Position numbers and translations under genes: made by a program. From Marinobacterium sediminicola (GTDB lineage: Bacteria; Pseudomonadota; Gammaproteobacteria; Pseudomonadales; Balneatricaceae): DNA of 64,000 nt. The stretch covers positions 1,984,001 to 2,048,000 of the forward strand of contig NZ_CP092123.1 in the NCBI RefSeq assembly GCF_022343685.1. Reading direction: 5' to 3'. Under the pieces are notes generated by a model that was not told the DNA's origin, ran no database searches, and worked only from the letters and a program-made list of their open reading frames with translations. Below are positions 35,765 through 48,601 of the stretch, one piece after another. Numbering within the stretch: position 1 is the first letter of the stretch; the number at the start of each line of letters is the position of its first letter.

Positions 35765-38287
35765 TCAGCCGCTCGCCTGACCAGGCTCATAACTCATGGC
35801 CCAGCCCTCCAGGTCGCTTGCTGTCATGGGACGCGCAATATGGTATCCCTGTGCCATGTCACAGCCAAGCTGTTTAAGCACCGCAAGATCTTGCGCAGAC
35901 TCCACTCCTTCAGCAACAACCTCCAGCTCCATGGCATGACTCATGTCTATCATGGCTTGTACCAGCCGCCCACCTGAATTCTCAGCATTAATCTGACTGA
36001 TGAAACTGCGGTCAATCTTGATCATGTCCAGCGACATATTGCGGATATAACTCAGACTCGAAAAGCCGGTACCAAAATCATCAATGGCAATGCGCACGCC
36101 GTGCTCACGAAGCCGAACCAGCTCGCACTCGGTTGCCTCGGCACTATGCACGAAGCAGGTTTCGGTCAACTCAACGACAAACAGCTCCGCTGGCAACTGA
36201 TACTTGTTCAGCAAAGCCAGCAATCGACTGGCCACTTCCCCACGCTGAAACTGCCTTGCAGAGAAGTTCACTGAAATTTTCAGTTCAAGACCCTTCTCAA
36301 GCCACTTCATCGTTTCAGCGATAGACTGTTCCAGCGCCCAGTAGCCAACGGCCTCGATCAGACCGGCATCTTCCGCAACCGGAATAAAGACTTCCGGTGA
36401 CACCTGCCCAAGCTGAGGGCTATACCAGCGTATCAAGGCTTCCACACCGATCAGCTTTCCGGAGTCGACCTCGATCTGAGGCTGATACACCATGTGGAAC
36501 TCATCATTATCAAGCGCTTGCTGCAATAGCCCGGCTATACGATAGCGGCTTAGGGTCGCTTCATGCTGGGCCGGTGAGAAGAAGCAAATACTGTTTCGCC
36601 CCTGCTCCTTGGAATGCTGTAACGCAATTTCAGCACAGCGAATAAGCGCTTCACCGGAACCCGCATCACCTGGAGCAACGGCCACACCGATACTGACCAT
36701 CACACGAACTTCATCGCGTTCAAGCCAGAAAGGCATCGACAATACACGGGTCAACTCATCCAGAAAGGCCGTTAATTCGCTCGTATCCGCCACTTCTGTC
36801 AGGATGATATTGAACTCATCCCCCGCAGGACGTGCTGCGGTTCCACGATCGCCAAGGGTCGCCCCAATTCGCTCGGCAACCTGCTGCAACAACAAGTCGC
36901 CGCCTTTATGACCAAAGCGGTCATTTATTTGTTTGAACAGGTCAATATCAAGCGCAAGCAATGCCATCATTTGCCCTTGTTCTCGACTGTAGTTGTATGC
37001 CAACTGCAAGCGGTCTTCGAACAAGCGCCGGTTGGCGAGCCCCGTCACCGCGTCAAACCAGGACAGCTGTTGCATTCTGGCCTGAGACCGCTTTAATTCG
37101 GTCAGGTCGTGGAAAATCGCGGCATACTGGCAGACCAGACCCTGATCATTTTCAATCGCGGTGATGCTGAGCCACTCAGGATATACACTGCCGTCTTTTC
37201 GCCGGTTCCAGATCTCGCCTTGCCAGCTACCGTCTTCCACCAGTGTCTGCCAAAGTTCGCTGTAAAATTGCTTATCATGACGCCCCGAACTGAGCATGCT
37301 CGGATTATTGCCCAGAGCTTCCCAGGCTTCATAACCGGTGATCAGCGTAAACGCAGGGTTCACACTCTGTATGCAGCCATCGGCATCGGTGATGACGACT
37401 CCTTCTCGGGAGGCATTGATCACTTTCTCAATGAGCCTCAGGTCATGCTGTGACTGTTTCAGAGCACGACTGTGATCATTCAACAACTCGCGTAAGCGGT
37501 ACACGTAGTCCATTTCAACACTGCGCAAAATGTCGGCGTAGGAAGCCAACCCCACCACTTTCCCGGAGGCATCCCGGACACCGATATGGCGAAATTCATG
37601 ACGTTTGAAATAGCTGCGCACATTGAAGAGACTCATGTCACTGTCGACACAAATCAGGCGTGGCAGTTCGAGATCTTCCAAAGCCGAGTCCGGGTCCACA
37701 CCTGCTCTCAGGAAACGAACAACATCCGTTTCCGTCATGATTTGCCACCCGCTCTCTTCTTCGCCAACCAGAACTGCGGAGTAGTTGACTCCGTGCATCC
37801 GCTCCATTGCCTTGCGGAAACTGCAGTGCTTGCTCAAACGCAGCACTTCGTAATGTGTAACTTCCTGCAGAGGCTTCAAGAAAAGGTCATGCTCCAGCCC
37901 TTGGTGATTGACGATATCACTCTGGCTGACAATACCCAGCCGCTCCCCCGCGGCTGAATACACCATCGCATGGTTGACGTTCTTGCTGATCAGCTCAAGT
38001 CCCAACTCACCAAGCTCCAGATCGGCATTGACCTTCGGGATTGGCTGCAACGCCTCTCGGGTTATCGCCACATCGCCTTGGTCAGATAGCGCCATCCCTA
38101 TCGCCTGCCGCCGAGTGAGAACCCCCTGAGCCAGACCCAACTCTTCAACCACAACGGAGCCAACATGGTACGCAACCATGAGCTCCAGCGCTCGAGCCAG
38201 CGACTCACCCAGCTCGATGCTGATGATGTCAGGCTGACAGATAGAGGCCACTTTCAGTGGAGTTGTATGTCGGGAGTTATCGTTCAT
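35765..38287 (-). CDS. CBS-PAS-GGDEF-EAL cyclic-di-GMP signalling protein
   Basis: An 840-residue cytoplasmic protein. Residues 10-260 hold four CBS-like repeats (two pairs), 285-400 a PAS domain (VVITDADGCIQSVNPAFTLITGYE), 405-570 a GGDEF domain and 580-830 an EAL domain. The GGDEF motif reads AGDEF (488-492), a changed first residue; the second acidic residues are kept. The EAL domain is intact (EALIRW at 616, DDFGTGFSSLSYI, KIDRSFI), so phosphodiesterase activity is expected and the GGDEF domain may be regulatory or weakly active. No membrane helices: CBS and PAS inputs imply sensing of nucleotides and a small ligand or redox. A 67-aa gene follows. Confidence 0.92.
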   Translation of the reverse strand: MNDNSRHTTPLKVASICQPDIISIELGESLARALELMVAYHVGSVVVEELGLAQGVLTRRQAIGMALSDQGDVAITREALQPIPKVNADLELGELGLELISKNVNHAMVYSAAGERLGIVSQSDIVNHQGLEHDLFLKPLQEVTHYEVLRLSKHCSFRKAMERMHGVNYSAVLVGEEESGWQIMTETDVVRFLRAGVDPDSALEDLELPRLICVDSDMSLFNVRSYFKRHEFRHIGVRDASGKVVGLASYADILRSVEMDYVYRLRELLNDHSRALKQSQHDLRLIEKVINASREGVVITDADGCIQSVNPAFTLITGYEAWEALGNNPSMLSSGRHDKQFYSELWQTLVEDGSWQGEIWNRRKDGSVYPEWLSITAIENDQGLVCQYAAIFHDLTELKRSQARMQQLSWFDAVTGLANRRLFEDRLQLAYNYSREQGQMMALLALDIDLFKQINDRFGHKGGDLLLQQVAERIGATLGDRGTAARPAGDEFNIILTEVADTSELTAFLDELTRVLSMPFWLERDEVRVMVSIGVAVAPGDAGSGEALIRCAEIALQHSKEQGRNSICFFSPAQHEATLSRYRIAGLLQQALDNDEFHMVYQPQIEVDSGKLIGVEALIRWYSPQLGQVSPEVFIPVAEDAGLIEAVGYWALEQSIAETMKWLEKGLELKISVNFSARQFQRGEVASRLLALLNKYQLPAELFVVELTETCFVHSAEATECELVRLREHGVRIAIDDFGTGFSSLSYIRNMSLDMIKIDRSFISQINAENSGGRLVQAMIDMSHAMELEVVAEGVESAQDLAVLKQLGCDMAQGYHIARPMTASDLEGWAMSYEPGQASG

Positions 38288-38428
38288 TGACGCAGAATAT
38301 CACAGCTGTTTCAATTTGAGGGCAGATAAGGATCAGCTCCCAATCATTTACTTTCTTAGAAGGATTGCCCTGATTCGCCCACTGTGCCAGCATCAAGCAC
38401 CTACCCCGCAAGACTCGGAATTACGGTG

Positions 38429-40732
38429 ATGCAGCAACCCTCTCTCAGTGCCTTGACCTCCATCGTTGAACAGATTGCCCGCACCGGAGATCCCAGAACG
38501 GTGATGAGCAATATTGTCCAGCGCCTGCGGGATATCATGCACGTTGAGGTCTGCAGCCTGTACTTGTGCACACCTGACTTTCAGCATCTCATTCTTGCCG
38601 CTACCGAAGGACTGTCTCCACAGTCTGTTGGCAAGGCGAAACTGGGGCTGGACGAAGGTCTGGTAGGTCACATTGCCGCATCCCTTAGCACCCTGAACCT
38701 TGGCGACGCCCCTGCAGATGATCGCTTTGTCTTCATTCCCGAAACCCATGAAATGCCTTACCACCGTTTCCTGGGTGTCCCGCTGCTACACCTGCGGAAA
38801 TTGATCGGCGTTTTGGTGATTCAGGGACGAGAGCGTGAGCCCTTCCCTCAGGAAGCCGAAGCCTTCCTGATTACCGTTGCTTCTCAGCTGGCCGGCACCT
38901 TGTCACAGCTGCAAAGCAAAGGCGGCTGGTATGAAAAAAAGAGCACACGGGGGGGATACCGGCGGTTTCATGGTCTCAAGGGTGCACCGGGACTGGGACT
39001 GGGCAAGCTCTGGCTTGTGCGGCCACATCTTTCGCTTGACCAGGTACGCGCCGCCTGCACCGCTGAGCCGGAAAAGGATAAGACTGCCATTACCGAGGCG
39101 ATCGCGGCGGTCAGCGAGGAGCTGGAATCCGGCTCCGGCCATCTGGGCCAACACCTCCCGGGCGACCTGCATGCCCTCTTCAATGTCTATCAGATGATGC
39201 TGCAGAGTCCTGAATTGAGCCAGCAGATCACCGCACGTATTGATGCAGGTGACAATGCTCCCTGGGCGCTCAAGCAAACCATCACGGCCATGGCCGAGCA
39301 GTTCAGACAAGCCGATGATCCCTATCTTAAAGCCCGTGCCGAGGACATCTGCAATATTGGCCAGCGTATTCTGAATCAGTTGATTTCACGTGAGCGGCCA
39401 TCCATGGAGACCCCTGATGAAGCGCTCATACTGGCAGGCGAGCTGATCAGTATTGCCGATCTCGCTGATTTTCCGCTACACCAGATTCACGGCATCATCT
39501 GCACTCAGGGGTCAACACTTTCTCATACTGCCATTCTGGCCAATGCGCTGGGCATACCCGCCGTTATGGGCGTCGAGCAGTTTGAGCCGGAGCAACATAA
39601 AGGCGCCATGCTGATCGCTGACGGTCACCGAGCCGAATGCGTGCTGAATCCTCCAGCGGCACTTTTGACCGAATATCGTCGCATGATCGACGAAGAACAA
39701 CGCTTCATGCAGGGACTTGAGCGTCTTCGTGACCAGCCGGCAGTGACAACGGACGGTTTCACAGTCAGCCTGCTGACCAATACAGGCCTCTTGGCCGACG
39801 CGACTCCTGGCTTGCAGCGGGGTGCAGAAGGCGTTGGGCTGTACCGATCCGAAATCCCGTTCATGATTCATGACAGCTTCCCGACCGAGCATGAGCAATT
39901 CATGCTCTATCACAAGGTTCTGGAAGCCTATGCACCGCGGCCAGTCAGCATGCGCACCCTGGATATCGGTGGTGACAAACAGCTCCCTTACTTCGATATC
40001 ACAGAGACCAATCCCTATTTGGGCTGGCGCGGCATCCGCTTCAGTCTGGATAACGCCCAGCTGTTGATTGCCCAGATCCGCGCCATGCTGCGTGCTGATG
40101 TAGATAACAACAACCTGCGCTTGCTGGTCCCCATGGTCAGCCGCGTTGACGAGATGCAGAGCTTTCGCCGTTACGTGGAAAAGTCGGTTGATGCACTGAC
40201 CCGAGAAGGCTTTGCCGTTCGCATGCCGGAAATCGGCATGATGATCGAAGTGCCATCTGCCATGCTGCTGCTGCCGAGACTGGCACCTTATATCGACTTT
40301 GTATCGATCGGCTCCAATGACTTGACCCAATACCTGCTGGCCGTCGACCGTAATAACCCGCGGGTTTCCAACCTGTTTGACCACTTGCACCCGGCTGTGC
40401 TGGTTGCGCTGGAACAAATCCAGCAGCAGTGTGAAGCGCTCTCGCTTCCGGTTTCACTCTGCGGAGAAATGGCCTCAGACCCTGCAGCCGTGCTTCTGCT
40501 GGTGGCCATGGGGTATCGCTGCCTGAGTCTGAGCGCCTATAACATCCCACGAGTAAAGTTGTTGATCCGCTCGATCAGTCGCGAATCGCTTTCGGATCTG
40601 CTGGAGCAAAGTCGTCAGTGCAGCAGTGAAGCCGAAGTGCGCGCATTGGTTGCGCCGGTACTGGAGCAGGTCGGGTGGAGGCAGGACAAACGCCCCAACC
40701 TGCCGGACGAGGAAACAGAAGGCGCTCAATGA
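38429..40732 (+). CDS. ptsP: Phosphoenolpyruvate-protein phosphotransferase PtsP (EI-Ntr)
   Basis: First enzyme of the nitrogen-related phosphotransferase system; it autophosphorylates from PEP and passes phosphate to NPr. Domains: N-terminal GAF (about 5-150, VCSLYLCTPDFQHLIL, FLGVPLLHLRKLIGVLVIQ), EI N-terminal and mobile phosphohistidine domain (GSTLSHTAILANALGIPAVMG), and the PEP-binding barrel (GAEGVGLYRSEIPFM, IGSNDLTQYLLAVDRNNP, SLCGEMASDP). The ATG at 38429 gives 767 residues; a GTG at 38384 would add 15. No rppH precedes it, unlike in enterics and many Pseudomonas. The stop codon lies inside a perfect hairpin. Confidence 0.95.
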   Translation: MQQPSLSALTSIVEQIARTGDPRTVMSNIVQRLRDIMHVEVCSLYLCTPDFQHLILAATEGLSPQSVGKAKLGLDEGLVGHIAASLSTLNLGDAPADDRFVFIPETHEMPYHRFLGVPLLHLRKLIGVLVIQGREREPFPQEAEAFLITVASQLAGTLSQLQSKGGWYEKKSTRGGYRRFHGLKGAPGLGLGKLWLVRPHLSLDQVRAACTAEPEKDKTAITEAIAAVSEELESGSGHLGQHLPGDLHALFNVYQMMLQSPELSQQITARIDAGDNAPWALKQTITAMAEQFRQADDPYLKARAEDICNIGQRILNQLISRERPSMETPDEALILAGELISIADLADFPLHQIHGIICTQGSTLSHTAILANALGIPAVMGVEQFEPEQHKGAMLIADGHRAECVLNPPAALLTEYRRMIDEEQRFMQGLERLRDQPAVTTDGFTVSLLTNTGLLADATPGLQRGAEGVGLYRSEIPFMIHDSFPTEHEQFMLYHKVLEAYAPRPVSMRTLDIGGDKQLPYFDITETNPYLGWRGIRFSLDNAQLLIAQIRAMLRADVDNNNLRLLVPMVSRVDEMQSFRRYVEKSVDALTREGFAVRMPEIGMMIEVPSAMLLLPRLAPYIDFVSIGSNDLTQYLLAVDRNNPRVSNLFDHLHPAVLVALEQIQQQCEALSLPVSLCGEMASDPAAVLLLVAMGYRCLSLSAYNIPRVKLLIRSISRESLSDLLEQSRQCSSEAEVRALVAPVLEQVGWRQDKRPNLPDEETEGAQ

Positions 40733-40740
40733 GCGCCTTC
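40718..40740. terminator. Hairpin spanning the ptsP stop codon
   Basis: Perfect 10-bp stem (GAAGGCGCTC / GAGCGCCTTC) with a 3-nt loop that includes the ptsP TGA. It lies between convergent genes and probably ends both transcripts, though T tracts are short. Confidence 0.6.
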
Positions 40741-40743
40741 AAC

Positions 40744-41652
40744 TTACTGGAAGTGCCCCAACCGGATTCTGAGGAAGTTGTAGATTTCGTTGACAACGTC
40801 CACTTCACAGCAGCTTTCGACACCCTCGAACCCAGGTGAAGAGTTGGCTTCACAAACCTTGTAGTGATCACCGGCAAACAGCAGGTCTACTCCGGCGATC
40901 TCCAACCCGAGCACTCTGGCTGTCTCGATCGCCAGCCATTCCACTTCAGGCGTCATTGGAAATTCTCGAACCGATGCGCCCCTTGAGAAGTTGGCCTTGA
41001 AGCTGCCTTCTTCCGCTATTCGCTCCATACAGGCCACGGCACGACCGCCGATCACGATGACGCGCAGATCCCGCCCACGACTGTCGGCAATGAACTCCTG
41101 CAGAATGATGTTCGCCTTGGGGTTGGTCACTTCTACCAACTGCATCAGGTCCTCGAAGTGGCTCAGCGTCTCACACAGGAAAACGCCACTGCCCTGAGAG
41201 CCCGACAGGGTTTTAACCACGACGGGAAAGCCAATCTGTTTCTTGACCAGTTCCGGATTAACCGGGAACTTGACCAGCATCGTTTTCGGCACCGGCAAGC
41301 CATTCTGCGCCAGAATCTGATGACTGTAGAGTTTGTCCTTGACCGTATCGATACTCTCGGCCGAATTGAAGCTGTGCACCCCCAGGCGCTCAAGGTGCCG
41401 AATGACGGCCAGTGCAAAATAGTTGGTCCCGGCCCCCATACGCGGCAGAAAGAAATCCGGCAGCGGTGTTGGCTCACCATCAATCATGACACTGTTACGG
41501 TCATCACGGGTGACTGTGAGGTCGAAAGCCTCTGGGGTATAGACCTTGATATCAATGCCGTGCGCACTGGCTTGAGCGACCAGTCGCTCTATTTCGTAAG
41601 TTTCCTGTTTGACCAGAGTATGATCGGACTTGTACAGAATCCAGCCCAGCAT
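40744..41652 (-). CDS. RimK-like ATP-grasp ligase
   Basis: A 302-residue ATP-grasp amide ligase close in layout to RimK, which adds glutamate to the C-terminus of ribosomal protein S6. Visible are LPDFFLPRMGAGTNYFALAVIRHLERLG, NSAESIDTVKDKLYSHQILAQNGLPVPKT, VVKTLSGSQGSGVFL (ATP lid), NIILQEFIADSRGRDLRVIVIGG and the metal-binding end VCEANSSPGFEGVE. It diverges from a second ATP-grasp gene over 320 bp and belongs to the same locus as a DUF1704 peptidase. It may ligate amino acids to a protein or peptide; the substrate is unknown and S6 is only one possibility. Confidence 0.88.
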   Translation of the reverse strand: MLGWILYKSDHTLVKQETYEIERLVAQASAHGIDIKVYTPEAFDLTVTRDDRNSVMIDGEPTPLPDFFLPRMGAGTNYFALAVIRHLERLGVHSFNSAESIDTVKDKLYSHQILAQNGLPVPKTMLVKFPVNPELVKKQIGFPVVVKTLSGSQGSGVFLCETLSHFEDLMQLVEVTNPKANIILQEFIADSRGRDLRVIVIGGRAVACMERIAEEGSFKANFSRGASVREFPMTPEVEWLAIETARVLGLEIAGVDLLFAGDHYKVCEANSSPGFEGVESCCEVDVVNEIYNFLRIRLGHFQ

Positions 41653-41972
41653 CGGTTATGCAACTCCTGAAAAAAGATGGCGCGATATTAAGCTCCACAG
41701 GGCTTTGGCACCAGCGCATTTTTATCACTTTATGGCATCTGCGCCATCATTGTGAAATCAGGCACTATACTGCCAACGATAGATGAAAAAAAATAACGTA
41801 TTGCGGGCACAAAAGTGCTTGCCCAACACGGGGTTATGGCGTCCAATGCGCGCACTTGCCACAGGTCGCTCAGCCCTGAGCCCTGGCACATTTCCTATTT
41901 GATTACCCAACGCCGACAGCCATTGCCAAGGGCACGCCATGTCGCCCGCTACACTCATCTGTCTGCAGGAGA
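41653..41972. other. Divergent intergenic region between the two ATP-grasp genes
   Basis: About 320 bp likely holding two promoters. I see AT-rich stretches around 41720-41800 but no convincing -35/-10 pair and no gene with a ribosome-binding site. Confidence 0.5.
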
Positions 41973-41978
41973 ATGATG

Positions 41979-43013
41979 ATGAAAATCTGCTTTCTGATGT
42001 ACCCCTGGGAACAGGTTAAACCGGATACCGACACTACCCTGCGCATGGTCCATGAGGCCGCCTTACGGGGTCACACTGTTGCCATCACGTCTCCGGCGAA
42101 CCTGACCATCCGTGACAACATCAGCAGCGCTTTCTGCAACGTATTGCGCAAGGGCAAGGTATCGGAAAATATTCCGTCATTCTACCGTCATGCCGAATTC
42201 CGCCGCAGCCGACTTCCGCTGGCCGGTTTTGATGCCATCATCGTTCGCCTGAACCCGCCATTGGACACGATTGTGCTCAACTTCCTTGATTCGATTCATG
42301 GTGATGTTTTCATCATGAATGGGTTGGACGGGTTACGTATCGGTAACAACAAACTTTATACCGCTGCCTTCAATGGTCCCGCATCCAAGTACATGCCTGT
42401 CACCCACGTGTCCAAGAACAAGGAATACCTGGAAAAAGCCCTCGAGGAGTCACCAGGCGAGCGCATGATCCTCAAACCCCTGAACGGTTTTGGCGGCAAG
42501 GGCGTGATCGTGATCGAGAAAAGCGCACGCCAGAGCTTCCGCTCCCTGCTGGATTTCTACATTGGTAGCGGCAGCAACAGCAACTACGTTATTCTTCAGG
42601 AATATGTCGATGGCGCAGAAAACGGTGACGTTCGCATCCTGATGCTGAATGGTGAGCCGATTGGCGCAATGCGCCGCATTCCTGCAGATAATGACGTCCG
42701 CTCCAATGTTCACGCCGGTGGCCGTGTGGTGAAACATACTCTGAGCAAAGAAGAGCTGGAACTATGTCGCAGCATCGGTCCCAAACTGGTTCGCGACGGC
42801 CTTTACTTCACCGGTCTGGATGTAATCAATGGCAAACTGATTGAGGTCAACGTCATGGCACCGGGCGGCATCGTACGCATCAATAAGCTCAATCGTGTTC
42901 GCCTGCAGCGCCAGGTAATCGACTTTGTCGAGAATGTGATCGAGGCTCGTAACATGGTTGAACAACGCAAGAGTGCCTTCCGCAAGGTGATCGAAGATGC
43001 AGACGCTGTCTGA
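41979..43013 (+). CDS. Glutathione synthase-like ATP-grasp ligase
   Basis: A 344-residue ATP-grasp protein related to glutathione synthase (GshB). It has the N-terminal substrate domain (MKICFLMYPWEQVKPDTDTTLRMVHEAALRGH, FDAIIVRLNPPLDTIVLNFLD), the ATP-grasp core (MILKPLNGFGGKGVIVIEK, VILQEYVDGAENGDVRILMLNGEPIGAMRRIP) and the metal site (LIEVNVMAPGGIVRIN). Three ATGs in a row start the frame; the third (41979) is seven bases from AGGAG. It overlaps the next gene by 17 bases, so ligase and peptidase are translationally coupled. True GshB activity is possible, but the neighbour suggests a dedicated peptide or metabolite ligase. Confidence 0.85.
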   Translation: MKICFLMYPWEQVKPDTDTTLRMVHEAALRGHTVAITSPANLTIRDNISSAFCNVLRKGKVSENIPSFYRHAEFRRSRLPLAGFDAIIVRLNPPLDTIVLNFLDSIHGDVFIMNGLDGLRIGNNKLYTAAFNGPASKYMPVTHVSKNKEYLEKALEESPGERMILKPLNGFGGKGVIVIEKSARQSFRSLLDFYIGSGSNSNYVILQEYVDGAENGDVRILMLNGEPIGAMRRIPADNDVRSNVHAGGRVVKHTLSKEELELCRSIGPKLVRDGLYFTGLDVINGKLIEVNVMAPGGIVRINKLNRVRLQRQVIDFVENVIEARNMVEQRKSAFRKVIEDADAV

Positions 43014-44979
43014 AGCCGCCATTCTAGCCCGCATCCAGAATCGAGAACCGGTTCATGCACGGCTTCGTAATGGCGGCCTGGTAATCAGAATCGATGAATA
43101 CGTTCCGCTGGTTTGTACCGTTTTGCACTCTGGCACCCAGCTCAAGGCTGATGTAGAGAAACGACTGCTGATCAGTAGTGAACAGCGGCGTCTTTTCGAG
43201 TCTACAGGGACGGCAGAACTGGCTGACTTGCTGCCGATCACATTGATCGCTGAAGAATCACGTCTGGCCTGTGATTTGAACTTCTCATTGACTCAATGCA
43301 TGCGGAAACGGCTGGACGGTCGAAGCCTTTGGCGGCGACCGCCAACCAAGGCGATGCAGCAGTACGCCCACCGACGCCATCAGCGCTTCTATCATCTGCT
43401 GGATTCTCTTCTGGATGCACTGGAGGAAGATCATGGCCAGTGTCTGTTGGTTGACCTCAACAGCCAGCCTCGTAGCTTCGACAGCGACAGCGGCGTCTTC
43501 CATATCATCGATAGCCAGGTACGGATGCCGGAGGGCGAGACGGTCATCAACTGCCTGCGCGATCAACTGCAGGCCATTGAGCTACCTCATCAGGAAGTCA
43601 GCACATCCAGTGGCGAGTCTGCTTATCAGGGCGACTACCTCAGCGCCCACGTCAACACACGACACGAACAAACGCTGACAGTCCCTTTACAGATTGATCC
43701 TATCTTCAGGGATAGCAGTGGCAACCTGTACCCGCTGGTTGTCGACGCATTGCGTAATGGCCTGCACAGCAGTCTGTATGAAGCGGCCGCAACTTTGGCC
43801 CGCCAGGGGTCCAACCGCCCATTGAGTGGGCACGACCTGATGCCCAGTGAGCTGCCCAAAGAGGTTCTCAGGGTTGACCGCGCGCTGAAGAAACTGGCGA
43901 AAGGACTGGAAACTCTGCTCTACATCAACCCGATCAATATTGCTCGGGAAGAACGCCAATTTATGCGCAGCAAGGGGCGCTACCAGCCGCAGTTTCGCTA
44001 TCGTCAATTGCGCATTGACCCCTATGTACACCGGGAGCAACTCTATCGCCTTCCCGTTGACCGCATCCGCGATCCGGCCTTGCGCCAGCTCTATCGCGAG
44101 GTGATCGATGCGCTTGCCGAGCGTATCGACCTATTGGTCAGCATCGGCAGTGATCGCTTCCTCTACAATTCGCTGCGTTACTATGGTGAGCCGACACCGG
44201 AAGACCTGGCCAATGCGCGTTTTCTGCTGCATGCCATGGACAGGCCAGAGGAAAGCAACGGACGGCGCTATAGCGCCGACGAAATGATCCCGTTTTTTGA
44301 GCAGAAAGCTCAGGAGTGGGGGCTCGAATGTCGAGTGGAACTGTCGGATCGGCTGCTGGCTCAAGCAATGGTCAACAATGGCCGAAAAGCCCTCCTGGTT
44401 CGCCGCAGCACCAGTGCCAGTGAGTCTGAACTGCATGCTCTGGCCCACCACGAACTGGGTGTGCACATGGTAACGTCGCTCAATGCCGCAGCACAGCCCC
44501 TGAAAGTGTTTACCCTTGGTCTGCCGGGCAACACCCATGCTCAAGAAGGGCTGGCAATCCTGAGCGAGTACCTCTGCGGCCATATGACACTGAAGCGACT
44601 GAAAACGCTTGCTCTTAGAGTGATTGCGGTTGACCAGATGCTGCGTTACAACGACTTCTGTCGGACCTGGCGCACGCTGGTCGAGGATTACCACTGCCAG
44701 GAGGAGGAGGCGTTCAAGATTACGGCTCGCGTTCACCGTGGCGGAGGATTTACCAAGGACCACCTGTATCTGAGCGGCTTCAGCCAGGCACTGAAGCTAT
44801 GGCGCGAAGGAGATATCACTGGTCTGTACGTGGGTAAGACCGGGTTCACTTACCTTCCATTGATCAATGAACTGCTGGCACGTGGACTCGTTGAATCACC
44901 TGCCTACCTGCCGCACAGTCTGTTAAACCCTCAAAGCTGCAGTCCGGAGATTACGTATCTGGTGAACTGCATTCGCTGA
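42997..44979 (+). CDS. N-formylglutamate amidohydrolase-like domain fused to DUF1704 (QEGLA) peptidase
   Basis: A 660-residue two-domain protein. Residues 20-265 resemble N-formylglutamate amidohydrolase (VCTVLHSGTQL with His44, QRFYHLLDSLLDAL, AYQGDYLSAHVN), but its DxHS metal motif reads VDLNSQ (about 152-156), so activity is doubtful. Residues 290-660 are the DUF1704/TIGR02421 domain, with HExxxH (HELGVH, 485-490) and the QEGLA motif (516-520). This domain is shared with the eukaryotic tubulin tyrosine carboxypeptidase MATCAP; bacterial members are named flavohemoglobin expression-modulating proteins. It is coupled to the ATP-grasp gene upstream and 20 bp before a short mscS gene. A removable peptide tag is an inference. 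Confidence 0.85.
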   Translation: MQTLSEAAILARIQNREPVHARLRNGGLVIRIDEYVPLVCTVLHSGTQLKADVEKRLLISSEQRRLFESTGTAELADLLPITLIAEESRLACDLNFSLTQCMRKRLDGRSLWRRPPTKAMQQYAHRRHQRFYHLLDSLLDALEEDHGQCLLVDLNSQPRSFDSDSGVFHIIDSQVRMPEGETVINCLRDQLQAIELPHQEVSTSSGESAYQGDYLSAHVNTRHEQTLTVPLQIDPIFRDSSGNLYPLVVDALRNGLHSSLYEAAATLARQGSNRPLSGHDLMPSELPKEVLRVDRALKKLAKGLETLLYINPINIAREERQFMRSKGRYQPQFRYRQLRIDPYVHREQLYRLPVDRIRDPALRQLYREVIDALAERIDLLVSIGSDRFLYNSLRYYGEPTPEDLANARFLLHAMDRPEESNGRRYSADEMIPFFEQKAQEWGLECRVELSDRLLAQAMVNNGRKALLVRRSTSASESELHALAHHELGVHMVTSLNAAAQPLKVFTLGLPGNTHAQEGLAILSEYLCGHMTLKRLKTLALRVIAVDQMLRYNDFCRTWRTLVEDYHCQEEEAFKITARVHRGGGFTKDHLYLSGFSQALKLWREGDITGLYVGKTGFTYLPLINELLARGLVESPAYLPHSLLNPQSCSPEITYLVNCIR

Positions 44980-44999
44980 ATCAGGACAGGAGTCTGAAC

Positions 45000-45524
45000 A
45001 TGTGGGAGACACAGCTCACCTTGACGGCGGTTGCGATTGGCGCGCTCTTTGCCGCACGCTGGATCAGCAGCCGGATTCTGGACCGTATCGGTCTTCAGAA
45101 GCAGGTTGCCAACCGCCGCCTGCTGATGGTCAAACGCTTTTTCGGCCTGCTGCAACTGATTATCACGGTGATGCTGATCTGTATTATCTGGGGCGTGGAT
45201 TATGCCGAACTGATGATTCTGTTCTCGTCGGCCTTCGCCGTCATCGGTGTGGCGCTCTTTGCCCAATGGTCAATCCTGAGCAACATTACCGGCAGCATCA
45301 TCATTTTCTTTGCTTTTCCCTACCGTATCGGTGATCGCATCAAGATCCTGGACAAGGATGATGATATTACCGGTGTGATCACCGAGATAAGCCTCTTTCA
45401 CCTGCACATTCAATGTGACAATGGGGAAACCATTCACTACCCGAACAACCTTGTTCTGCAGAAGGCTGTACGCCGCCTGTCGGCCAACGACCCGGCCGCC
45501 ATTACCAGTGAGGAAGCCCCCTAG
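45000..45524 (+). CDS. Short MscS-family channel protein
   Basis: A 174-residue MscS-fold protein with two or three hydrophobic segments, the pore-like segment FSSAFAVIGVALFAQWSILSNITGSIIIFFAFPYRIGD and the first part of the beta domain (IKILDKDDDITGVITEISLFHLHIQCDNGETIHYPNN). It lacks the large C-terminal alpha/beta vestibule of MscS. AGGAG lies seven bases before the ATG, 20 bp after the DUF1704 gene, so it is likely the third gene of that operon. It could be an ion or metabolite leak channel tied to the ligase system. The stop overlaps a convergent gene by four bases. Confidence 0.85.
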   Translation: MWETQLTLTAVAIGALFAARWISSRILDRIGLQKQVANRRLLMVKRFFGLLQLIITVMLICIIWGVDYAELMILFSSAFAVIGVALFAQWSILSNITGSIIIFFAFPYRIGDRIKILDKDDDITGVITEISLFHLHIQCDNGETIHYPNNLVLQKAVRRLSANDPAAITSEEAP

Positions 45525-46360
45525 TCGGTCATTGCTTCCAGGGTTTCGTGCCAGAGAGTCAGCCGCGGGCAAGTTTCCAGTAGCACACCATCTCTGAACA
45601 TCAACACCTCACCTTCGGGCAAGGGCTCCCAGGGACGGTCATCCAGCGGGACGCTTGCCAGCATGACCGTTGACACGCCTTCACGCTGCTCGAGCTGAAG
45701 GCCATCAATATCGCGACTGCCACTGGCTTCGCACTGAAGCAAGTGCAGCCCGGGGGCCGAGATCTCACCACTGGCCTGGCGCCGGCGATCGCTGTGCGCG
45801 AACAGTAATTCACCGTCTGAATAGAGGAAGTTTGCGGGCCCCAGCTGGCGCAGGCGGGCTGCAAAGTCTGCCACCACTGCCAGCCGCACATCCGACTCAG
45901 GACGCCCCTCCTGCCAAACCGCGGCCATACGTGCCATCAACACGCAAAAAGCCCGTTCAGAATCCGTTTCTCCTACAGGCCGAAAATGACCGCTCGGAAA
46001 GCGCTTGGGATTATGAATAAACCTGTTCAGATCACCATTATGCGCAAAAAGATGTGTCGCCCCACCCGTCTCTCGCTGGAACGGCTGAGTATTTCGCAGC
46101 GCAATTTCTCCCTGGGTCGCATGGCGAATATGACCAAGAAACAACTGAGATGGGCGGTGACGCTCGGTCAACCAACGAGCTGTTTCGCTATGTGCACAAG
46201 CTCCGGCCTCTCGAATCAGCTGAACGTCGCCCTGTTCGTACCAGGCGAAGCCCCAGCCGTCACCATGAAGCCCATCCCGGCCTCCATGCCGAGCAAAACG
46301 GGCCAGTGACAAAGACAGCTCAACGGGCTCTGAAGTGGTGATCGCCAGGAGTTCACACAT
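45521..46360 (-). CDS. Class II glutamine amidotransferase, copy 2
   Basis: A 279-residue YafJ-like glutaminase with Cys2 nucleophile (MCELLAITTS), GDGWGFAWYEQGD, LFLGHIRHATQG and LFAHNGDLNRF. It is a distant paralogue of the protein at 21398-22180. It follows the MFS gene by three bases in the same direction and probably forms an operon with it. Its ammonia acceptor is unknown; a link to the convergent ATP-grasp operon is possible but only positional. Confidence 0.9.
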   Translation of the reverse strand: MCELLAITTSEPVELSLSLARFARHGGRDGLHGDGWGFAWYEQGDVQLIREAGACAHSETARWLTERHRPSQLFLGHIRHATQGEIALRNTQPFQRETGGATHLFAHNGDLNRFIHNPKRFPSGHFRPVGETDSERAFCVLMARMAAVWQEGRPESDVRLAVVADFAARLRQLGPANFLYSDGELLFAHSDRRRQASGEISAPGLHLLQCEASGSRDIDGLQLEQREGVSTVMLASVPLDDRPWEPLPEGEVLMFRDGVLLETCPRLTLWHETLEAMTD

Positions 46361-46363
46361 GGT

Positions 46364-47554
46364 TCAACTTACCTTCAATGGCTGCACAACGGCTTCAGCG
46401 TCGCGCCTTACCGATTCCAGCATAAACAATGCCACCAGCGTAATGGCCACCACAGGGATCATCAACACGTTCATGGTCGCCCAGCCGACACTGGCTTCCA
46501 GCCAACCGGCCGCCAGAGCCGAACAGGTCACCATGCCAAACACCAGAAATTCGTTGGCAGCCTGTGCCTTGGCCTTTTCTGCCGGCTCATAGGCCTTCGT
46601 CAGGAAGGATGTTGCACAGATGAACATCCAATTCCAGCCTACGCCCAGAAGGAGCAAGGCGGTCCAGAAGTGCCACTCAGTCTGTCCATGCAAGTTGATG
46701 GCGATACAGATCAGCATGATCACGGCACCGGTTTTCATCAACAGTACTTCACCATAACGGCGGATCAAGTGACCGGTAAAAAATGATGGTAAATACATGC
46801 CCAGCACATGCCATTCAATGACATTGGCAGCACTGGAAAAACTATAGCCGCACCGTCCCATCGCCAAAGGTGTTGCGGTCATCAGCAGATTCATGACTGC
46901 AAAACTGACCATGCCAGCCAGCACGGCCATCAGGAAACGAGGCTGCAACATGATTATTTTGAGTGGTCGCGTGCTGCCCTGGATGTCGCGTGGCATGGGT
47001 GGAATACGAATCCACATCAGCAGCATGAGCGCCAGCAAATAGACCCCAGCCAAAACGGCAAAAGCCCCACTGAAATCGACCTCCCACAACACTGATCGGC
47101 TGTAAACGGCCAGGTTGGGTCCCAGTACTGCAGCGATGATGCCACCCAGCATCACCATTGAGATCGCACGGCTCTCATAGCCCTTTTCGCAGACCTCCAC
47201 CGCCGCAAAGCGGTAGAGCATGCCAAACCCTATGCCAACGCCCAAGAGCGATGTCCCGAGACAGAAAAGCGAAAATGAAGCAACCTGCAACGCCAGCAAA
47301 CAGGTGATTGCACCCGCAAGTCCTATGCAATTACCCAGCAGGAAGCCATTGCGCCGACCGATACGTTGCATGATCAGTGATGCCGGAATCGTTGCCAACA
47401 TCAAGCCGACAAACTGAAAAGCAACAGGCAAGGTAATCAGCGCTTCCGATGGGGCTAGCTGCTGCCCGATCAGAGCATTGACTGACACCAGCAACACATT
47501 GCCGGTATTGAGCAACGCCTGACAAAGCGCCAACAGCCAAACATCTCTATTCAT
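46364..47554 (-). CDS. Major facilitator superfamily transporter
   Basis: A 396-residue carrier with about 12 transmembrane helices. The cytoplasmic loop after TM2 reads LIMQRIGRRNGFLLGN, matching the MFS A-like motif, and GIGFGMLYRFAAVEVCEKGYESRAISMVMLGG follows. The start is near AATATG-rich sequence with a weak ribosome site. It is upstream of the glutamine amidotransferase gene with three bases between. The substrate cannot be inferred. Confidence 0.88.
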   Translation of the reverse strand: MNRDVWLLALCQALLNTGNVLLVSVNALIGQQLAPSEALITLPVAFQFVGLMLATIPASLIMQRIGRRNGFLLGNCIGLAGAITCLLALQVASFSLFCLGTSLLGVGIGFGMLYRFAAVEVCEKGYESRAISMVMLGGIIAAVLGPNLAVYSRSVLWEVDFSGAFAVLAGVYLLALMLLMWIRIPPMPRDIQGSTRPLKIIMLQPRFLMAVLAGMVSFAVMNLLMTATPLAMGRCGYSFSSAANVIEWHVLGMYLPSFFTGHLIRRYGEVLLMKTGAVIMLICIAINLHGQTEWHFWTALLLLGVGWNWMFICATSFLTKAYEPAEKAKAQAANEFLVFGMVTCSALAAGWLEASVGWATMNVLMIPVVAITLVALFMLESVRRDAEAVVQPLKVS

Positions 47555-47773
47555 ATAACAATCTCATATAAAACGATCGCTCATTTAAGGCGTTCCTGCG
47601 TCCCTATGCAAGCCAGCGGCTCCATTGAACCGCTCAGAACCAAGAACGCGTAAACCTGAAGAGGAAGATTTAGCGTGCATAATTTGAGACACTGAGGCTC
47701 AGTTTTTGTATATTGCACAATACAGGGTTTACCACCTGTATTGATCTGCCGCCTTAACTGGATGAAACAGAAT

Positions 47774-48577
47774 ATGACTCTCGATGAACTGCTGGTACTG
47801 GTGATTGAGCCTTCCAAGCTGCAACGCACGATCATCATTGACTATCTGCGTGAGATCGGCCTCAAAGAGATAGAGGCTTTTGAGGAGGCGGCGCCTGCAC
47901 TTGAACGTATGCAGCAGGTGGTGCCTGATATTGTCGTTTCGTCCATGCACCTTCCGGACATGACCGGCACCGATCTGGTTACCCAGATGCGAAAGAGTCC
48001 GGATCTGATGGATGTTACCTTCCTGCTGATCTCTTCGGAGACGCACTACCGCTACCTGGAACCGATTCGTCAGGCCGGTGCCATCGCCATATTGCCCAAG
48101 CCGTTCCGCAAGGAAGAGCTGGCAACCGCTTTGCGCAACACCATGCATTACATTCGTGATCTCTATGAGCTTGAGAATGAAGAGCACTCAGACCTGGAGT
48201 TCATGCAGATTCTGATCGTTGACGACAGCTCCATGTCACGCAAGTACATCCGCAAGGGCCTGAACGCCATCGGCATCGAGCATATTCTGGAAGCCAAGGA
48301 TGGAGCTGAAGCCTTGCAGATCATGAAGCAGCGTCGCTTCGATTTGGTAATTTCAGACTACAACATGCCGAACATTGACGGCCTTGAACTGGTCGAACAC
48401 ATTCGACACTACAGCGACCAGCCGACAGTTCCGGTCATGATGGTTACTTCCGAACAGAATGAGAGCCGTTTGGCCGCCATTCAGAGCGCCGAGGTCTCTG
48501 CCATCTGCAATAAACCGCTTAACTATGACACTCTGAAACAGATGGTTCGTCAGTTCACCACGGGCACCGATCAGTAG
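47774..48577 (+). CDS. Tandem receiver protein (pseudo-REC plus REC)
   Basis: A 267-residue protein with two CheY-like receivers and no output domain. The first (about 5-125) has LVIEPSKLQRT and DIVVSSMHLPDMTG: the phospho-Asp position is Ser (about residue 57), though the KPF lysine is kept. The second (about 142-265) is complete: ILIVDDSSMSRK, DLVISDYNMPNIDG, MVTSEQ, NKPL. It may act as a phosphate sink or adaptor for chemotaxis-like signalling, since a chemoreceptor gene converges on it. ATG at 47774 chosen by alignment; the ribosome site is weak. A perfect hairpin covers the stop codon. Confidence 0.85.
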   Translation: MTLDELLVLVIEPSKLQRTIIIDYLREIGLKEIEAFEEAAPALERMQQVVPDIVVSSMHLPDMTGTDLVTQMRKSPDLMDVTFLLISSETHYRYLEPIRQAGAIAILPKPFRKEELATALRNTMHYIRDLYELENEEHSDLEFMQILIVDDSSMSRKYIRKGLNAIGIEHILEAKDGAEALQIMKQRRFDLVISDYNMPNIDGLELVEHIRHYSDQPTVPVMMVTSEQNESRLAAIQSAEVSAICNKPLNYDTLKQMVRQFTTGTDQ

Positions 48578-48586
48578 ATCGGTGCC
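48563..48586. terminator. Hairpin spanning the stop codon of the tandem receiver gene
   Basis: Perfect 10-bp stem (GGCACCGATC / GATCGGTGCC), loop AGTA, containing the TAG. It lies between convergent genes; the following T run is short. Confidence 0.6.
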
Positions 48587-48601
48587 ACAGTTACCTTTCG
48601 A

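Follow-up and report, generated by a model that had tools for sequence, protein, structure and literature searches.

The locus described here lies in a 64,000-nucleotide window of the Marinobacterium sediminicola genome (assembly GCF_022343685.1, contig NZ_CP092123.1, positions 1,984,001 to 2,048,000; unless a locus handle is given, coordinates below are those of the window). It encodes on the plus strand a divergent glutathione-synthetase-like ATP-grasp ligase of 346 amino acids (GshB2, 41973..43013; NF009110) and a 660-amino-acid protein that joins an N-formylglutamate-amidohydrolase (FGase) fold to a MATCAP metallocarboxypeptidase (FG-MATCAP, 42997..44979; PF05013, PF08014, TIGR02421 and AlphaFold/Foldseek). 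Comparative genomics establishes the two as a conserved ligase-peptidase pair. We tentatively favor, with slightly less than even confidence, the reading that they form a writer-eraser amino-acid cycle working at low osmolarity, with a small peptide a likelier target than a protein.

Conservation of the gshB2/FG-MATCAP pair

A scan of named genomes yielded at least 80 fusion loci, 79 of them informative for the upstream gene. The listed loci come mostly from marine Gammaproteobacteria, and also from metagenome-assembled genomes (MAGs) labelled Nitrospirota, Desulfobacula, Bacteroidales and Microscillaceae. GshB2 is encoded immediately 5' of the fusion in 76 of the 79 informative loci listed, the exceptions being L093, L115 and L134. 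At the Marinobacterium locus the stop of gshB2 and the start of the fusion gene overlap by 17 bp on the plus strand (42997..43013, from the open reading frame (ORF) map), and the spacing in most relatives is -14 to -23 bp.

Two broader samples gave the same picture. Among 146 genomes of the order, where the NF009110 cut-off defined GshB2, all six genomes above the cut-off carry the fusion; a seventh fusion starts at a contig edge. For the class (369 genomes), GshB2 was counted at 350 bits or more on the same contig, and long and short MATCAP proteins were separated by score and frame length, a split inspected in only part of the members. Among the 17 genomes that encode a long MATCAP, 16 also have GshB2, adjacent in one or the other gene order, versus 2 of the 352 that do not (G360 and G342), an association with a Fisher p of ~6e-25 when phylogeny is ignored. 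GshB-like proteins of lower score (~350-395 bits; L216-L219 and L240-L244), which occur without MATCAP, were excluded from the pair. Short stand-alone MATCAP genes mostly have no GshB2 nearby. MATCAP survives without GshB2 in L093, L115, L134, G256, G546 and G584, whereas no genome was seen with a GshB2 above 400 bits and no MATCAP, a pattern that fits a writer dependent on its eraser.

The pair occurs in two gene orders. In order A, gshB2 precedes FG-MATCAP; in order B, an FGase gene is followed by a MATCAP protein with a degenerate FGase-like N-terminus and then by gshB2, and some contigs bear two gshB2 copies. That the same pair recurs in two arrangements argues against passive synteny. The sequence-only reading of this locus had called for conserved pairing with ATP-grasp genes outside the genome, which holds for the GshB-like ligase and MATCAP and fails for RimK, at this place a genus-level feature; the unit that is conserved is smaller than that reading supposed.

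In order-B loci such as L203:6498-9174, the MATCAP protein that follows the separate FGase gene carries no metal motif in its FGase-like N-terminus. Judged by their residues, the order-B lineage and the lineage of the Marinobacterium locus appear to have lost FGase-domain residues independently. Just 5' of gshB2, many loci also share a conserved arrangement of a small DUF413 (MaoP-like) gene and, in divergent orientation, an HdfR-like LysR regulator gene (L059, L060, L099-L127 and others, at ~8.4-8.9 kb in each locus).

The FG-MATCAP fusion protein

The MATCAP domain of the fusion (amino acids 321-657; 43957..44967, plus strand) scores 340.2 bits against PF08014, with a gathering cut-off of 27, and 403.5 bits against TIGR02421, with a cut-off of 338.65, and residue comparison finds its active-site motifs intact. 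The HExxxH metal-binding motif (amino acids 485-490; 44449..44466, plus strand) and the QEGLA motif (amino acids 516-520; 44542..44556, plus strand), which aligns to EGLA of human MATCAP and includes the third metal ligand E517, stand exactly where they had first been read, and the metal site formed by H485, E486, H490 and E517 shows no variation across 41 relatives. The AlphaFold model of the protein (pLDDT 90.9, pTM 0.84) is matched by Foldseek to human MATCAP (7z5g, E 4.5e-10) and to an N-formylglutamate amidohydrolase (2q7s, E 1.1e-8) as two separate domains. We infer that the MATCAP domain is a C-terminal carboxypeptidase/deglutamylase, by analogy with eukaryotic members, in which alone that activity is established (PMC10499314). 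Our search of the literature on DUF1704, COG3930 and QEGLA found no functional study of bacterial members.

The FGase-fold domain (amino acids 37-225; 43105..43671, plus strand) scores 48.7 bits against PF05013, with a cut-off of 28.9. A residue table shows that it is degenerate in this copy, with R96F, H155N and E232Q, and that nearly all relatives retain R, H and E. The amidohydrolase-like domain proposed from the sequence is therefore real as a fold, supported by PF05013 and 2q7s, but lacks the conserved active-site residues, and in this FG-MATCAP it looks catalytically dead.

GshB2 and RimK2 are additional paralogues

GshB2 scores 448.1 bits against the subfamily model NF009110, above the cut-off of 408, and falls below both glutathione-synthase equivalogs (TIGR01380, 228.2 vs 299.05 bits; NF003573, 268.7 vs 272 bits). 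The structure nearest to its model is 1gsa, the Escherichia coli glutathione synthetase (TM 0.86 on the target), followed by RimK structures, and its fold matches include the RimK-RpsF complex 5zk6. Across phyla, outside the genus, GshB2 proteins are 59-76% identical to that of this locus, while the identity of fusions outside the genus to this FG-MATCAP is mostly 36-49%. Divergent from gshB2 lies the gene of RimK2 (40744..41652, minus strand), a RimK-family (alpha-L-glutamate ligase) ATP-grasp protein of 302 amino acids that passes the subfamily cut-off of TIGR00768 (226.9 vs 143.4 bits) and does not reach that of the ribosomal protein S6 ligase equivalog NF007764 (168.9 vs 331 bits).

The genome, 3.55 Mb on one contig, encodes the ordinary enzymes elsewhere: a canonical gshB at G000:C1:165659 (427 bits, vs 228 for GshB2), gshA at C1:124686 and, near 556 kb, a separate RimB-RimK pair (L246). 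No RimB (PF05618) lies beside RimK2 at this locus. GshB2 and RimK2 are therefore second paralogues, and the canonical gshB disposes of the possibility, raised as fatal by the sequence-only reading, that the GshB-like protein is the sole ordinary glutathione synthetase of the cell.

Induction at low salt

In RNA-seq of Photobacterium damselae at 1% vs 3% NaCl, RimK is up 52-fold, a 'glutathione synthase GshB' (RS17020) 38-fold and the adjoining 'QEGLA motif protein' (RS17025) 27.5-fold; the three rank among the most induced genes, and MgtE is up 5-fold (PMC10308900). In P. damselae ATCC 33539 (the study strain is RM-71), the only PF08014 gene has GshB2 directly 5' of it (L110) and gshB is a separate gene, which identifies the induced 'GshB' as GshB2. 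Going by the sequence of ATCC 33539, the published reading of this protein as a glutathione synthetase needs revision. A salinity proteome of Shewanella, Aliivibrio and Vibrio contains nothing on GshB2 or MATCAP genes. Given the published induction in one relative, an osmotic role of the pair is likely.

A possible writer-eraser cycle and its precedents

We propose that GshB2 and FG-MATCAP would act as a translationally coupled module, in which the ATP-grasp ligase would couple ATP to the joining of an amino acid onto a free carboxylate and the metallocarboxypeptidase would strip C-terminal amino acids back off. In this genus the RimK-family glutamate ligase would join the writer side, and the MscS channel encoded downstream would join the unit. 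The cycle would operate when outside salt is low, and its product would most likely be a small peptide or oligopeptide, probably containing glutamate, rather than a protein tag. The proposal builds on observed features: the genes present, their conserved pairing, catalytic motifs that are intact, co-loss and, from published data, induction in one relative. A small peptide is favored because GshB2 is far more conserved than the peptidase and is similar to an enzyme that uses a dipeptide, and because no protein target is co-conserved with it. Other operons, joint loss and co-induction all support a link of the pair to RimK-type ligases.

The TTLL ligases of eukaryotes are of the ATP-grasp type. 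Human and Tetrahymena enzymes of the MATCAP family take off C-terminal residues (Tyr and Glu in human) and shorten the polyglutamate chains made by TTLL ligases (PMC10499314). This system of TTL/TTLL ligases and MATCAP/TMCP1-2 peptidases resembles the bacterial pair in peptidase family, metal-binding motif and opposing ATP-grasp ligase, the TMCPs removing Tyr and Glu; it differs in that the pair described here is bacterial and FGase-fused, has a ligase of the GshB branch and involves no tubulin. The survey in that study covered eukaryotes only. Kinship with the tubulin tyrosine carboxypeptidase, to which the locus was initially compared, is confirmed at the family level, although polyglutamylation and deglutamylation fit better than tyrosination alone (PMC10499314).

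Two bacterial systems are also comparable. RimK attaches glutamate, which RimB takes off again (PMC11957791), and this system of RpsF polyglutamylation and poly-alpha-glutamate likewise combines an ATP-grasp ligase with a reversing peptidase and shares with our locus a RimK-family ligase; the RimB side, however, is a retropepsin, whereas the partners here are a GshB-like ligase and a MATCAP metallocarboxypeptidase. In Pseudomonas aeruginosa, loss of the Rlo peptidases blocks growth at low osmolarity, and deletion of the ATP-grasp gene rloC restores it (PMC12239564). The rloABC system is similar in its ATP-grasp and peptidase components and in its low-osmolarity requirement, with an eraser mutant rescued by deleting the writer, but it employs a secreted retropepsin and a membrane transglutaminase-like partner from other protein families. 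Together, the RimK/RimB, TTLL/MATCAP and Rlo precedents lend support to a low-osmolarity ligase-peptidase cycle but fall short of proof.

As for the families themselves, bacterial GshB shares fold (1gsa) and domain order with GshB2, which differs in scoring below the cut-offs and in occurring beside a canonical gshB. The MATCAP domain belongs to TIGR02421, 'flavohemoglobin expression-modulating QEGLA motif protein', but that name covers a stand-alone, biochemically uncharacterised family most of whose short members have no nearby GshB2. Bacterial members of the MATCAP/DUF1704 family have been named only for a motif, and a conserved ligase partner makes them part of a testable enzyme pair. Marine genera that can be cultured (Photobacterium, Shewanella, Pseudoalteromonas and Marinobacterium) have the pair, an inducing condition is known (low salt), and the pair could reveal the role of relatives of the tubulin-tail carboxypeptidases outside eukaryotes.

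Alternative explanations

The earlier proposal of a reversible C-terminal modification or a peptide-metabolite cycle is borne out insofar as the ligase-peptidase pair is conserved; the protein C-terminus is unsupported so far, and a small peptide is no less likely. Tagging of protein C-termini is an unlikely alternative, in which GshB2 and RimK2 would extend a protein such as a ribosomal protein or a channel and FG-MATCAP would trim it, in the manner of TTLL/TMCP on tubulin and RimK/RimB on RpsF. For both enzyme types, the closest relatives that have been characterised work on protein C-termini (PMC10499314, PMC11957791), RimK-RpsF is among the fold matches of GshB2, and RimK-type ligases recur in the neighborhood. 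Yet GshB2 is nearest in both fold and sequence to glutathione synthetase, which has a small dipeptide substrate, its higher identity across phyla than that of most fusions fits a small invariant substrate, and a co-conserved target is missing. A bacterial counterpart of polyglutamylation and deglutamylation, in which GshB2 and RimK-type ligases would write amino-acid chains onto either a protein or a carrier peptide, to be erased by MATCAP in a dedicated low-osmolarity response, is suggested by analogy and is rather doubtful; if true, it would place the writer-eraser logic of MATCAP/TMCP in bacteria. The two enzymes might instead act sequentially and not antagonistically, the peptidase trimming or deacylating a precursor that GshB2 then ligates to give a peptide metabolite or osmolyte. 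Such one-way biosynthesis would suit the order-B operons, whose separate FGase, MATCAP and one or two GshB2 genes are pathway-like, but it is also improbable, as FG-MATCAP is retained where both ligases have been lost and precursor trimming would not predict this. For the writer-eraser cycle, we infer both the direction of the chemistry and the antagonism of ligase and peptidase.

Ordinary glutathione metabolism, with GshB2 as a spare glutathione synthetase and the peptidase degrading glutathione, would agree with the NCBI subfamily name (glutathione synthetase) and the 1gsa-like fold. We consider it quite improbable in view of the canonical gshB and gshA of this genome, the separate gshB of P. 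damselae and the scores of GshB2 under both equivalog cut-offs. That the genes are neighbors with unrelated functions is most improbable of all: RimK2 and MscS are indeed missing from this place in most relatives, but GshB2 and FG-MATCAP are paired far above chance, both in Gammaproteobacteria and in MAGs of other phyla, and in either gene order. For that pair, the conservation of the pairing refutes it.

Several points weigh against the writer-eraser cycle. The pair is known from genes and one transcriptome, and its low-salt induction comes from one condition in one species. The persistence of FG-MATCAP without GshB2 in some genomes implies at least one other substrate or role, and the degeneracy of the FGase domain at this locus implies that its activity is not essential in this lineage. 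No co-conserved protein target or transporter pointing to the product was found among the loci compared. The associations with RimK, MscS and cation transporters involve few loci; MscS as a conserved neighbor beyond the genus is not borne out, its frequency within 10 kb being near chance in 80 loci.

History of the locus within the genus

At E<=1e-60, RimK2 is found in four of the seven genus members sampled and in none of the 73 other genomes of the family, and intact gshB2 occurs in the same four sampled family genomes and no others. RimK2 was accordingly rejected as a conserved partner at this place, being confined to four genomes of one genus. G546 and G584 have intact FG-MATCAP and MscS genes but no RimK, and their gshB2 is a relic. 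A five-neighbor-gene tree nests G546 in the ligase-bearing clade with a bootstrap of 100, and G584 branches more basally. G546 has kept the intergenic region, and of gshB2 the first 57 codons, fused in frame to the last ones, indicating that separate deletions took out RimK and gshB2. The gshB2 relic L265:9050-9289, reduced to 79 amino acids by an in-frame internal deletion, has kept its overlap with the start of the fusion gene, which is itself intact, as though to preserve translational coupling.

The short MscS-like channel protein of 174 amino acids (45000..45524, plus strand; PF00924) scores 44 bits with the MscS beta-domain profile, and its gene begins 20 bp 3' of the fusion gene. By tblastn in relatives, the gene is ancestral in the genus and was lost in three sampled members; as a stable neighbor it is restricted to the genus (G000, G546, G584). 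The adjacency noted at first sight is thus present here, but as a genus-level feature and not a conserved one of the locus.

RimK and cation-transporter neighborhoods elsewhere

In Thiomicrorhabdus arctica (L093), FG-MATCAP is part of an operon of the order MgtE-RimB-RimK-AstE-FG-MATCAP. A tight operon in L216 (8020-12991; G360, whose genome has no MATCAP) comprises a GshB2-like gene, CorA, MscS, RimK and AstE/AspA. Of 33 short-MATCAP loci, 4 have a RimK no more than 3 kb away vs 0.14 expected, two of the four being from one family; three of these loci have RimB and one CorA. Though few, these associations agree in direction. The Mg2+ transporters MgtE and CorA recur beside MATCAP or RimK genes (L064:12457-16624, L108, L093, L232).

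Other features of the locus

The four ORFs, their coordinates, the 17-bp overlap and the 20-bp gap are confirmed by the ORF map as originally described, and profile searches back the identification of the RimK-like, GshB-like, amidohydrolase-DUF1704 fusion and MscS proteins. The divergent genes are separated by an intergenic region of 320 bp (41653..41972), the expected promoter site of both transcription units; an Rfam scan of 36000-48600, this region included, matched no family. A class II glutamine amidotransferase gene (GATase_4, 45521-46360), conserved in the genus, has a 4-bp tail-to-tail overlap with the MscS gene.

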